From: Polyangiaceae bacterium
Lineage (GTDB): Bacteria > Myxococcota_A > Polyangia > Polyangiales > Polyangiaceae
Direction of reading: 5' to 3'
Assembly: GCA_009781005.1 (NCBI GenBank)
Contig: WQYX01000013.1
Coordinates: 1 to 64,000 of the forward strand
DNA length: 64,000 nt
Part shown: positions 1 through 42,440 of the stretch, piece after piece
Position numbering within the stretch: the stretch's first letter is position 1
Layout of the letters: each line of letters begins with the position of its first letter
Program-made: the position numbers and the translations under genes
The notes under the pieces: generated by a model
Databases searched by the model: none
What the model was told of the DNA's origin: nothing
What the model saw: only the letters and a program-made list of their open reading frames with translations

Positions 1-118
1 CGACGTGAACGAAACGACCGGTTCGTCGCCGTCGCCGTTCACGTCAAACGTCAAAGTCAACGATCACGCCGACGAGTTGCCGCTGCGGTCTCCATCGTCC
101 ACATCTTTCGTTCCGTAT

Positions 119-229
119 CTAGGGCGGAGCGCGAGCACCGGGCGGAACAGGCTTTGAGGCCTTTGAGCACGGAGCGCAGCGCCCGACCGACGAATCGATT
201 CGCGCAGCAGGCTGTCGAACACGTTCTCA
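119..229 (-). repeat. Copy C of the mosaic palindromic element (one arm only)
   Basis: Read on the minus strand this begins with the arm GAGAACGTGTTCGACAGCC, continues into the shared module CTGCTGCGCGAATCGATTCG, and ends at a CGCTCCGCCCTAG block. The complementary right arm seen in copies A and B is missing, so this looks truncated. Its central part (CTCAAAGCC...TTCCG) resembles copy G near 9.6 kb rather than A or B. The arm overlaps the stop codon of the neighbouring lipoprotein gene. Upstream bases 1-118 hold no gene I recognise, only a weak dyad GACGTGAAC/GTTCACGTC at the left edge. Confidence 0.7.
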
Positions 230-9594: not shown

Positions 9595-9713
9595 CCGCTT
9601 TCGATTTGCCGCGATCTCCTCGTTGGGGCCTGCGGTGCGGTCCTCAAAGCCAGAACAGGCTATTCCGGTCCGCTCCTCGGCCCCGCCTCGACCTCGCGTC
9701 AACTTGAAAGCGG
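9595..9713 (+). repeat. Copy G of the mosaic palindromic element
   Basis: The left arm CCGCTTTCGATTTGCCGCGA pairs with a right arm whose complement is CCGCTTTCAAGTTGACGCGA. Inside are TTGGGGCCTGCGGTGCGG and a central CTCAAAGCC module shared with copy C. The right arm (CGCGTCAACTTGAAAGCGGTC, 9695 onward) recurs exactly at 24609-24629, and the left half recurs near 51710. It lies between the divergent bamD and greA genes, so both promoters must adjoin or overlap it. Confidence 0.75.
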
Positions 9714-16721: not shown

Positions 16722-17051
16722 CAGAGCGTGTAGGGCAGCCTGCTGCGCGAATCGATTCGTCGGTTGGGCGCTGCGGTGCCTGCGCACGTACCACAACGTA
16801 CGCTTGCGCGGGCTCCTCGCGCTCCGCCCTAGCCCGGATCATTCATGACGCGATTTCTGCAGACGACCGAGACCGCAGCGAGAAGGGCGCACGCCGCATC
16901 GCAGGACCGAGGCGTACTGTACACGTACGCCGCAGGTCCGAGAAGCGCCGTACGACCTTCGCAGCAAAGGGATCGGCTCGTCTGAGTGGAGTCGTCGTGA
17001 ATGATCCGGGCTAGCCTCGATTCGCTCGCGACGGCTGCCCTACACGCTCTG
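16722..17051 (+). repeat. Copy B of the mosaic palindromic element, split by a nested MITE
   Basis: The arms CAGAGCGTGTAGGGCAGCC and its exact complement enclose the shared modules CTGCTGCGCGAATCGATTCG, GGGCGCTGCGGTGCCTGCG and TCGCTCGCGACGG. Without the 182-bp nested insertion it would be 148 bp, about the size of copy A. The arms differ from those of copy A at several positions, yet pair perfectly with each other. It occupies most of the gap between the tlpA-like gene and the haem lipoprotein gene; I see no gene in that gap. Confidence 0.8.
16832..17011 (+). mobile_element. Miniature inverted-repeat element with TA target duplication
   Basis: A 180-bp element with 19-bp terminal inverted repeats (GCCCGGATCATTCATGACG on the left, one mismatch on the right), flanked by TA on both sides. 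Removing it and one TA restores the CCGCCCTAGCCTCG sequence present in copy A, so the insertion site is precise. It has no coding capacity; the interior is itself partly palindromic around GGCGTAC/GTACGCC. TA duplication is the habit of IS630/Tc1-mariner transposases, so it was probably mobilised in trans. Confidence 0.85.
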
Positions 17052-36323: not shown

Positions 36324-37358
36324 TCACGAACGAGTCGCTTCATAGAGCGCGATACCGCTCGTCACAGCAACGTTTAGGGAATCGAGCGTGGGCTGCATGT
36401 CAATCCGTACGCGCTGCGCGCGCCGCAAGATGGTCTCGGGCAACCCCTCACCTTCCGTGCCGAGAAGGAGCGCTCGCTTTGCCACGGGTGCAAGGCTACG
36501 GAGTTCGCGCTCGCCACGCGGACTGAGAGCAATGGGCTCCCACCCGTGGTCCTCGAGTATGTCGAGCATGACTTCTGCCGACGCGCACCGCGCGAATGGC
36601 ACCATGAGCGCACCGCCAACAGACACACGAATACTCTTTCGGTAAAGCGGATCGCAGCAAAGGTTATCCAGCAAAATAGCTTGCACGCCGAATGCCGCCG
36701 CGTTGCGGAAGATGCTGCCTACGTTGTCGTGATTCGCGAGCCCCACGAGACCGATGACGATCTTTCGACTCTTAGAGCGAGTTCGACAGCCTGCTGCGCG
36801 AAATCGATTCGTCGGTTGGGCGCTGCGGTGCCTGCGCACGTACGACAAGTACGCTTGCGCGGGCTCCTCGCGCTCCGCCCTAGCCTCGATTCGCTCGCGA
36901 CGGCTGTTGAACTCGCTCTTATCCTTGCCTGTTGCAAGCAGATCGCTCGGATCCGTCGCGGGGCCGCGCACACCAAGCCCAAGGACGCCTCGGTGGATGG
37001 GGAAGCCCACGATGCCATCTAAGACCCCCTGCGGAGCAACATAAACAGACACGGATTCCGGCAGCGCGTCAATGACATCCCGCAACGTTTCGATACGTCG
37101 CGTCTCGATAAGCAGTGAGCGCACCGTGAAGGGACTGCGCATCACGAGCACGCGCACAACGACTTCACCTTCGGCGATAAAGAGTCCTTCGCCGTCGCCA
37201 TTGCCACGAAGAAGATCGCGCTCACGCACTCCGACGTACGGGTACAAAAACGGCGTCGCGTTTGCGGCGTCAACGGAAGAAATCGTAACGAGACGGGCGG
37301 CCAAGAAGCACACAAATAACACGATCCCAGCGAGACTCCGATCGCGAAGCGCGACCAT
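36324..37358 (-). CDS. SpoU/TrmH-family RNA 2'-O-methyltransferase with in-frame repeat insertion
   Basis: A 344-residue protein. The N-terminal substrate-binding region (ERDLLRGNGDGEGLFIAEGE) and the SPOUT knot motifs NHDNVGSIFRNAAAFG, LLLGTEGEGLPETIL and LDSLNVAVTSGIALYEA are intact. Members methylate ribose 2'-OH in tRNA or rRNA with SAM. Between the two domains 49 residues (after LLATGKDK, to RTRSKS) are encoded by palindromic element A; they are Arg/Glu-rich and foreign to the family. Removing 147 bp gives GKDKSRKIVIG without a frame change, so the enzyme may still fold with a linker. The exact start is unsure because the first 30 residues lack homology. Confidence 0.85.
   Translation of the reverse strand: MVALRDRSLAGIVLFVCFLAARLVTISSVDAANATPFLYPYVGVRERDLLRGNGDGEGLFIAEGEVVVRVLVMRSPFTVRSLLIETRRIETLRDVIDALPESVSVYVAPQGVLDGIVGFPIHRGVLGLGVRGPATDPSDLLATGKDKSEFNSRRERIEARAEREEPAQAYLSYVRRHRSAQPTNRFRAAGCRTRSKSRKIVIGLVGLANHDNVGSIFRNAAAFGVQAILLDNLCCDPLYRKSIRVSVGGALMVPFARCASAEVMLDILEDHGWEPIALSPRGERELRSLAPVAKRALLLGTEGEGLPETILRRAQRVRIDMQPTLDSLNVAVTSGIALYEATRS
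36775..36918 (-). repeat. Copy A of the mosaic palindromic element, inside a coding gene
   Basis: Terminal arms GAGCGAGTTCGACAGCC and GGCTGTTGAACTCGCTC pair with one mismatch and are flanked by TTA on both sides. Shared modules in order: CTGCTGCGCG, ATCGATTCGTCGG, GGGCGCTGCGGTGCCTGCG, a central GTAC-GACAA-GTAC dyad, CGCTCCGCCCTAGCC and TCGCTCGCGACGG. Element plus TTA is 147 bp, a multiple of three, and it is free of stops in the gene's reading direction. Confidence 0.9.
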
Positions 37359-40484: not shown

Positions 40485-41024
40485 TCATACGTCTTGTACG
40501 GGGCCGCCAAATGCCCCAGCAAAGCGCGCAACCCACAACGCGAACAGGAGGAGCGCGACGACGACGAGAATCATGCGTGTAAAGCGCATACGCATGGAGG
40601 TTCCCCACGCGCCCGACCGCAGGTAACCCGCGATCTCGATGCCGGCGAATATCACGGCGACGGACAAAACGAGCCACACGAGCGGATGCATGACTGTCGC
40701 CGCGGTGAAATCACCGCGCAGCAAAAGGCGGGTCGCACGCGTGAGACCACACGTTGGGCATGGCAGCCCCGTTGCGAGGTGCAACGGGCACGGCCAACCA
40801 ACGAACAAGATGAAGGCGGCAAGCGCACCAATCGCCAAGAGCATGTTTCCCAGCCTGCTGCGCGCCGCGATGCCAGCATCGACGGCGCCTTCGGCGCTGT
40901 CGGCCCCGCCTGCGGCGGGGACCTCAGGGGGCCCTGCGGTGCCTGCGCACGTACGACGAGTACGCTTTCGCGGGCTCCTCGGGCCCGCCTTGGCCTCACG
41001 TCGCTCGCGACGGCTGGTAAACAT
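40485..41024 (-). CDS. DUF2752 membrane protein with repeat-encoded N-terminus
   Basis: The core is DUF2752: a helix, then CPLHLATGLPCPTCGLTRA with its Cys-Pro-x-Cys-Gly signature, then two further helices. Function is unknown; the family often contacts thioredoxin-fold or secretion components in other genomes. If translation starts at 41024, the first about 60 residues (Arg-rich, then Pro/Ala/Gly) come from palindromic element D. A second ATG at 40844, also within the element arm, gives a normal 119-residue protein beginning MLLAIGALAAFILFVGWPCP. Either way the element supplies the start codon. Confidence 0.75.
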   Translation of the reverse strand: MFTSRRERREAKAGPRSPRKRTRRTCAGTAGPPEVPAAGGADSAEGAVDAGIAARSRLGNMLLAIGALAAFILFVGWPCPLHLATGLPCPTCGLTRATRLLLRGDFTAATVMHPLVWLVLSVAVIFAGIEIAGYLRSGAWGTSMRMRFTRMILVVVALLLFALWVARFAGAFGGPVQDV

Positions 41025-41028
41025 GCTC
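40839..41028 (-). repeat. Copy D of the mosaic palindromic element
   Basis: Arms GAGCATGTTTCCCAGCC and a right arm whose complement is GAGCATGTTTACCAGCC, with CTGCTGCGCG and TCGCTCGCGACGG just inside, as in copies A and B. The central part keeps CTGCGGTGCCTGCGCACGTA and GTACGCTTTCGCGGG, and has an additional hairpin CCCCGCC-TGC-GGCGGGG. At 190 bp it is the longest uninterrupted copy. It covers the 5' end of the DUF2752 gene. Confidence 0.8.
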
Positions 41029-41063
41029 TAATGGCGCGACCGCGTCCTTACCCTGCCTCGGCA

Positions 41064-42440
41064 CTACTGCTCTTTTCGGAGCGGACGACCCTGGCTGTCG
41101 GTGAACTTGCCTAGAAGCAACATGATGAAATCGTACAGCGCCCAGAGGCCGCAACCACCCAATGTAAGGAGCTGGATGACTCCATACAGGGTGTACCCCG
41201 TGTAGAAGCGGTGAACACCGAGACCGCCGAAGAAGAAGCAGAGCAGCACCGTCACCATCCATGACTTGTCGCTCTGCCCCATCATTGCACCCGGCGGCGG
41301 CCCGCCCATCATCATGGGGGCACCTCCGTACGGTTGCATGGGTCCGCCCGGGTACGGTGGTGAGTATGGCTGCGCACCCATGCCTTGGTTGAATTGGCCT
41401 TGGTTGGGTTGGCCCTGGTTGAATTGGTTGCCGAAATCGCTGAGGGCCTGACCCATCTGGTTGAAGCCCTGATTGATTTGACCCGCGAAATCCTGCGGAG
41501 GCGCACCATAAGGCGGTTGCCCTGCCATAGGACCTGCCATGGGGGGAGCAGGCGTGGGAGGATATGGAGGGGGAGGCGCACCCCATCCTGCCGGATCTTG
41601 TGGCGGGGGCGGTGGCACGGGAGGAGGACCGTAGGGATTGTCCAATGGCGGGGGGGCACCCCATCCTGGTGGCTCTTGCGGAGGACCCTGCGGTGGTTGC
41701 GGTTGTGGAGGCGGCGCGCCGTACGAGCTGTCGGCCACTGCAACGGGTGGTGGAGGCACACCAGGCATGGTCTCGACCGGAGGTGCACCAAAGGCTGGCG
41801 CGGGGGCTGCACCAAAGGCTGGCGCAGGAGCTGGGGAAAAGGCTGGCGCGGGGGCTGCACCAAAGGCCGGCGCAGGGGCTGGAGAAAAGGCTGGCGCGGG
41901 AGATGGAGAAGGAGATGGAGCGACAGCAAACGGGGGCACCTCGACCGCCACCGTGGCACCGAGTGGGTTCAGGGGCTCATCCGCTCCTGTTCCAGGAGGA
42001 GGCGATCCGCCGTAGTTCGGCATCACCTGCGGGGCAACCCCCACGATGGTTCCTTTGATTCGGCGTGACGGCGGAGGCGCTGCACCCGTGGCACCCGTGG
42101 CAGACGGACCAGAGCCCGCCGGGCCACCGACGACCGGTGCTGCCGGCGGCGCAGGTGGCAGCGCGTCCGCCACGAACGGCGGCGGCGGCGGAACGGGAGG
42201 CGATTGGTTCATCGCCGGGTTACCGGCGAGCGGCGCCGGCGGCGCGCCCGCCGCGAACGACGGACCACCTTGCGGCGGCGGAACGGCTTGCGGTGAAACG
42301 GGCGACGACTGATTCACCATCAGCATCGTGCCTTTGAACGATTTCCCGGGCGGCGGCCCCTTTATCGGGAGCGCGAAGTGGCACTTGAGACACGACGTTA
42401 CCGTTTCCGGATTTTGGGCTCCACATTGCGGACAGAACAC
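41064..42440 (-). CDS. Zinc-ribbon, Pro-rich, TM2-domain membrane protein
   Basis: A 458-residue protein in three parts. A zinc ribbon comes first ([20 protein letters not shown], four Cys). A Pro/Ala/Gly-rich low-complexity region of about 330 residues follows, and then a C-terminal TM2 domain with two helices ([38 protein letters not shown]). The GTG at 42440 has GGGAGG at the right distance and starts exactly at the zinc ribbon; longer starts add unrelated residues. The middle carries a 24-bp tandem repeat. Cytosolic zinc ribbon plus TM2 suggests a membrane sensor or scaffold; function is unknown. Confidence 0.8.
41797..41916 (-). repeat. 24-bp tandem repeat within the TM2 gene
   Basis: Five 24-bp units alternate between two types, GGCGCGGGGGCTGCACCAAA-type and GGCGCAGGAGCTGGGGAAAA-type, encoding eight-residue AFGAAPAP and AFSPAPAP blocks. 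Copy number could vary between strains without a frame change. Confidence 0.85.

Follow-up and report, generated by a model that had tools for sequence, protein, structure and literature searches.

An F1 palindromic element in frame within a SpoU-family methyltransferase gene of a Polyangiaceae bacterium, with a candidate IS5-family mobiliser

A palindromic element of a family here called F1 is inserted in frame in a SpoU/TrmH-family RNA 2'-O-methyltransferase gene of a Polyangiaceae bacterium. This is a real in-frame insertion of a MITE, and one part of a wider phenomenon that resembles the palindromic elements of Rickettsia. The account preferred here, held with high confidence, is that the F1 MITE was moved by an IS5-family transposase and entered a TTA in the linker-coding part of the gene, and that it is read through and tolerated in a protein that is probably active. 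The gene lies in the 64,000-nucleotide stretch analysed here, referred to as the window.

The F1 core, with terminal inverted repeats GAGCGAGTTC.../...GAACTCGCTC, occupies exactly positions 36775-36918 of the plus strand (144 bp) and is palindromic. It is flanked by TTA at 36772-36774 and at 36919-36921, two exactly matching copies of a target-site duplication. The core and one TTA together add 147 bp, or 49 codons, to the methyltransferase ORF, which runs on the minus strand from 37358 to 36324 without a stop across the insert. The initial annotation had described a palindrome that, with its TTA duplication, adds 147 bp in frame and without a stop, and the core, the flanks and the open frame are all as it described. 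The RNA of this copy folds far beyond chance, at -90.2 kcal/mol compared with -59.1 kcal/mol for shuffles (z -8.1). The closest sampled copy differs from it at 4 positions and the target-site duplication is exact, suggesting that the insertion is young.

The host gene (36324-37304, minus strand) encodes 326 amino acids including the insert, if the proposed TTG at 37304 is the start. Initiation at this TTG, rather than at the listed ORF start at 37358, is likely because the protein then begins with MAARLV, as does the orthologue in a related genome (G003), which probably leaves the first 18 codons of the listed ORF untranslated. By sequence, the protein belongs to the SpoU family, with a SPOUT domain that carries the conserved motifs. 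The SpoU_methylase match (PF00588, 102 bits, residues 200-339 of the 344-residue ORF) is encoded downstream of the insert at 36342-36761 of the minus strand, and the N-terminal domain, delimited by orthologue alignment and a structure model, is encoded upstream of it at 36922-37304 of the same strand. The 49 residues are thus added between the N-terminal and SPOUT domains, as had been proposed. An AlphaFold model of the protein has a mean pLDDT of 87, with both domains predicted confidently, and the insert is its weakest part (pLDDT 38-74), with two short predicted helices. The closest structure to the model is RlmR of Thermus, a 23S rRNA methyltransferase (Foldseek E 6.8e-20). The host protein differs from 23S rRNA 2'-O-methyltransferases of the RlmR/TrmH type by the 49-residue insert in its linker.

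The empty site was sought by alignment of orthologues, as the initial annotation had suggested, and was found. Both halves of the methyltransferase are matched by 14 orthologues from the same family, in which the insertion point has at most a short linker, variable and only a few residues long. In an alignment of 41 sequences that takes in alphaproteobacterial and planctomycete relatives, the insert is present in none of the other 40, which each fill 5 or fewer of the 48 insert columns. Excision had been predicted to restore GKDKSRKIVIG, and the junction GKDK|SRKIVIG does align to the orthologues. The finding of the same 49 residues in orthologues without the repeat would have spoken against an insertion, but they are absent from all 40 of those aligned. 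A native, lineage-specific linker was also considered and is ruled out, given that translation of the repeat yields those 49 residues and that the orthologues lack them.

The alternative that survives best, although it is considered unlikely, is that the gene was already being lost, and that its ORF is still open for no other reason than a recent insertion into a dispensable gene. The genome is small (4.8 Mb, compared with 6.6-11.9 Mb in most congeners), and a young insertion leaves little time for visible decay. In the sister genome G009 (4.2 Mb), a clear orthologue of the methyltransferase is lacking and the best SPOUT hits reach about 34%, which suggests that the gene is dispensable in a relative. 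The F1 insertion could therefore be an early step of gene loss. On the other side, all 35 columns without variation among the other 40 sequences are retained in the methyltransferase, as are 54 of the 56 columns conserved at 90% or more. The latter retention is ordinary, ranking 12 of 41. The coding signal is strong on both sides of the insert, and no sign of decay was seen in the ORF, the conserved columns or the coding signal. Because both domains retain their conserved residues and predicted fold, the insert-bearing methyltransferase is probably still active.

The F1 family is abundant in the genome. All 40 of the candidates scored in the same genome, from 401 first-look candidates, match F1 at 93-100%. 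A profile search of 2.05 Mb, the 43% of the draft genome to which all counts for F1 and for a second family, F2, refer, returned 171 hits representing about 138 copies, which extrapolates to some 320 copies per genome. Identical 3-bp target-site duplications flank 46 of 65 full copies, 45 of them of the form TNA, and the reconstructed empty-site target is CTNAG. F1 is short, has outer inverted repeats and lacks a transposase ORF, and its many dispersed copies carry target-site duplications, all of which are characteristics of a MITE.

Three further copies lie in the window: one at 16723-17050 (plus strand) that is split by a nested palindrome of about 133 bp, one at 40838-41029 (plus strand) with an internal insertion of about 47 bp, and a partial copy at 117-227 (minus strand). 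The nested palindrome, CCGGATCATTCATGACG...GAATGATCCGGG, apparently represents a third palindromic family. Separately, a tandem 24-bp repeat (D1) is present at 41779-41922. F1-like copies occur in G009 at about 90% identity and, more weakly, in other genera of the family; none were found in most congeners. Two genomes from other genera (G034 and G014) have elements that are 68-72% identical to F1 over nearly its whole length, and F1-like MITEs may therefore be older than the genus.

The distribution of F1 bears on a second alternative, that the element is adapted to coding like the palindromic elements of Rickettsia and persists in genes owing to a peptide that proteins can accommodate or put to use. 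For F1 this is considered quite improbable. It is favoured by the occurrence of in-frame copies in two unrelated genes, the second being an internally deleted copy (C55:16852-16915) in a DsbD_2-family gene (PF13386, 162 bits, full profile). The reading frame, SE/VxSRRERIEARA, is the same in both, and the insert of the DsbD_2 gene sits in a loop that is variable among congeners. These are the only 2 in-frame coding copies among 138. Long ORFs through F1 at C8:32316, C2:72523, C22:10825 and C5:73201 were rejected as genes, by eye, for their antisense or low-complexity appearance. Against coding adaptation, F1 is depleted in ORFs: with genes called by a simple codon-usage caller (182 of 200 frame calls right), called ORFs contain 8 of 65 full copies, several of them close to the end of a gene, compared with 185 of 300 randomly chosen CTNAG sites (p 1.5e-13). 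The commonest insertion length, 146 bp (39 of 65), would shift the frame, and the window copy is recent. The 147-bp class accounts for 16 of 65 copies, 10 of which would be open in the frame and at the site of the window copy, so it is not unusual for this class to leave the frame open. We infer that the genic copies that survive are those that purifying selection lets through. Given that F1 is mostly intergenic and that its commonest insertion would shift the frame, the window copy is a recent, tolerated exception and not a coding-adapted element.

A search of the genome for transposases with PF13359 found nothing. A search with PF01609 found ISAs1-like, IS4-like and fragmentary hits, and the fragments led to an IS5-family partner (NF033580, E 6e-34, above the cut-off for one of two fragments). 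The ends AGAGCATGTTTACCAGG or AGAGCGTGTTCGACAGCA adjoin the IS5 transposase fragments and are identical to the F1 ends over 16-17 bp. F1 thus appears, by comparison of these ends, to share its termini with a potential autonomous element. Ends of this type lie near the ends of 13 contigs (C4, C12, C30, C37, C41, C62, C75, C85, C89, C97, C173, C176 and C182), as expected because a multicopy insertion sequence breaks the assembly. The element is multicopy with two subfamilies, recognised from its ends and fragments, with no complete copy assembled. The IS1031 group of the IS5 family uses a TNA target with an exclusive 3-bp direct repeat (PMC12016507), the same target and duplication as read on the F1 copies; F1 itself carries no transposase. 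The partner would belong to the IS1031 group by target site only. The dispersed copies with target-site duplications, the shared IS5 ends and the TNA target with 3-bp duplication identify F1 as a MITE for which the same cell contains a plausible mobiliser.

The weakest alternative, that two unrelated sequences were joined at a repeat during assembly, might be raised for a draft of 199 contigs in which several copies of repeats and insertion sequences fall at contig ends, but it is hardly credible and is dismissed here, since the two flanks together make up a single orthologous gene, its halves correctly ordered, oriented and in frame, and the target-site duplication is exact.

In short, a non-autonomous F1 copy would have been mobilised by the transposase of the IS5-family element with the same ends and TNA preference, and would have inserted at a TTA within the codons of the linker that joins the N-terminal domain to the SPOUT domain. 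Because the window copy belongs to the 147-bp class and its frame has no stop, translation would run through it and add 49 flexible, Arg-rich residues. The insert-bearing protein would be made and active, and the insertion would persist by being tolerated, not by being of use.

The second palindromic family, F2, is unrelated to F1. Its palindromic copies measure about 119-120 bp or, in longer forms, close to 183-189 bp, and have the ends CCGCTTTC...GAAAGCGG; the family gave 176 hits in the 2.05-Mb sample. F2 copies showed no target-site duplication when offsets of 0-3 and widths of 2-5 were tried. The window contains one copy, at 9595-9713 of the minus strand (119 bp). The hairpin centre, of 2-5 nt (CAGCCT[nnnn]GGCTTTG), is hypervariable among copies with near-identical stems, in this genome and in G009.

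F2 is found in frame in genes for an ApaH-like phosphatase (C18:9139-9258), a LuxE-like protein (C3:93427-93546) and, in the other orientation, LigD (C14:51628-51744), all names with Pfam support. Further in-frame cases, named by eye, are a thioesterase-like protein (C4:96169-96351), a diacylglycerol-kinase-like (DagK) protein (C15:19866-20048) and, with a fragment of F2, a TonB-like protein (C16:53132-53215). Coding signal flanks the in-frame copies on both sides, and 5 of the 6 genic copies use one frame, giving all or part of the peptide (D/N)RFQVDA(S/R)SRR...ALRTAPQ(P/A)PT..SRQIESG. The corresponding ApaH-, DagK-, thioesterase- and LuxE-like genes of congeners, G009 included, have no insert; for LigD the empty site is blurred, as relatives also have a long linker at that place. 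The full-length genic copies measure 117, 120, 120, 183 and 183 bp, each divisible by three, partly as a condition of their detection, whereas most F2 copies are 119 or 118 bp. About 5 of 67 full F2 copies are genic; one subfamily contributes 3 of its 5 full copies, compared with 2 of the 62 others (p 0.002), in a comparison chosen post hoc.

In G009, 120-bp F2 copies are in frame in other genes (loci L330, L332, L334, L335 and L338), with hosts that by eye include MtnA-like isomerase, N6-methyltransferase-like, glycosyltransferase-like and UvrD-like proteins. These cases were located with the F2 peptide as a guide, which biases them: an unguided 400-kb sample of G009 gave 17 F2 and 12 F1 hits, and the same test placed none of these in frame within a gene. 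The chances are about even that the F2 subfamily of 120 or 183 bp, which preserves the frame and encodes DRFQVDASSRRP...ALRTAPQPPT(M/K)(K/R)SRQIESG, is a true protein-coding palindromic element, preferentially kept in frame in enzyme genes after independent insertions in two species. It would then constitute a recurrent route of protein elongation outside the Alphaproteobacteria, to which F1 contributes occasionally.

According to reviews, MITEs that lie within genes are not uncommonly fused in frame; such fusion is highly frequent for the Rickettsia palindromic elements (RPEs), and is known in Neisseria and enterobacteria too (PMC10969869, PMC2229807). Like F1 and F2, RPEs are palindromic, about 100-150 bp long and found in frame in unrelated conserved genes (PMC10969869, PMC2229807). 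In-frame insertion in conserved genes with empty orthologues is clean for F1 in the SpoU gene, lies in a variable loop for F1 in the DsbD_2 gene, and is found for F2 in the ApaH-, DagK-, thioesterase- and LuxE-like genes. In contrast, nearly half of RPEs were in genes in the original report, whereas F1 is there rarely (2 of 138) and F2 in a minority only (about 5 of 67 full copies). The target-site duplication of RPEs is listed as unknown, while F1 has clear TNA duplications and an IS5 partner, and the hosts of RPEs belong to a different phylum. The parallel with Rickettsia drawn in the initial annotation thus holds for an in-frame palindrome in an enzyme but not for F1 as a family, which is a typical IS5-type MITE, depleted in genes and usually of 146 bp; F2 carries the parallel better. 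By analogy, F1 and F2 may be placed with RPEs as a functional class, and common descent is not claimed.

Other in-frame MITEs, the 107-bp Correia/NEMIS of Neisseria and the enterobacterial ERIC, are listed as having TA termini, unlike the TNA within CTNAG of F1, and differ in sequence and lineage. No report of in-frame palindromic insertions for Myxococcota was found in the open-licence literature searched. In-frame MITE fusion is therefore already known elsewhere, and its occurrence in Myxococcota is new within the literature searched, the F2 subfamily being the newest part. The in-frame insertion of selfish palindromes in conserved enzymes has until now been discussed mainly for Rickettsia, and its recurrence in a myxobacterial genus, with two unrelated families and empty sites in congeners, provides independent test cases. 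These allow for tests of the tolerance of proteins to sudden insertions of 40-60 residues, and also bear on whether coding-compatible subfamilies of mobile elements evolve.
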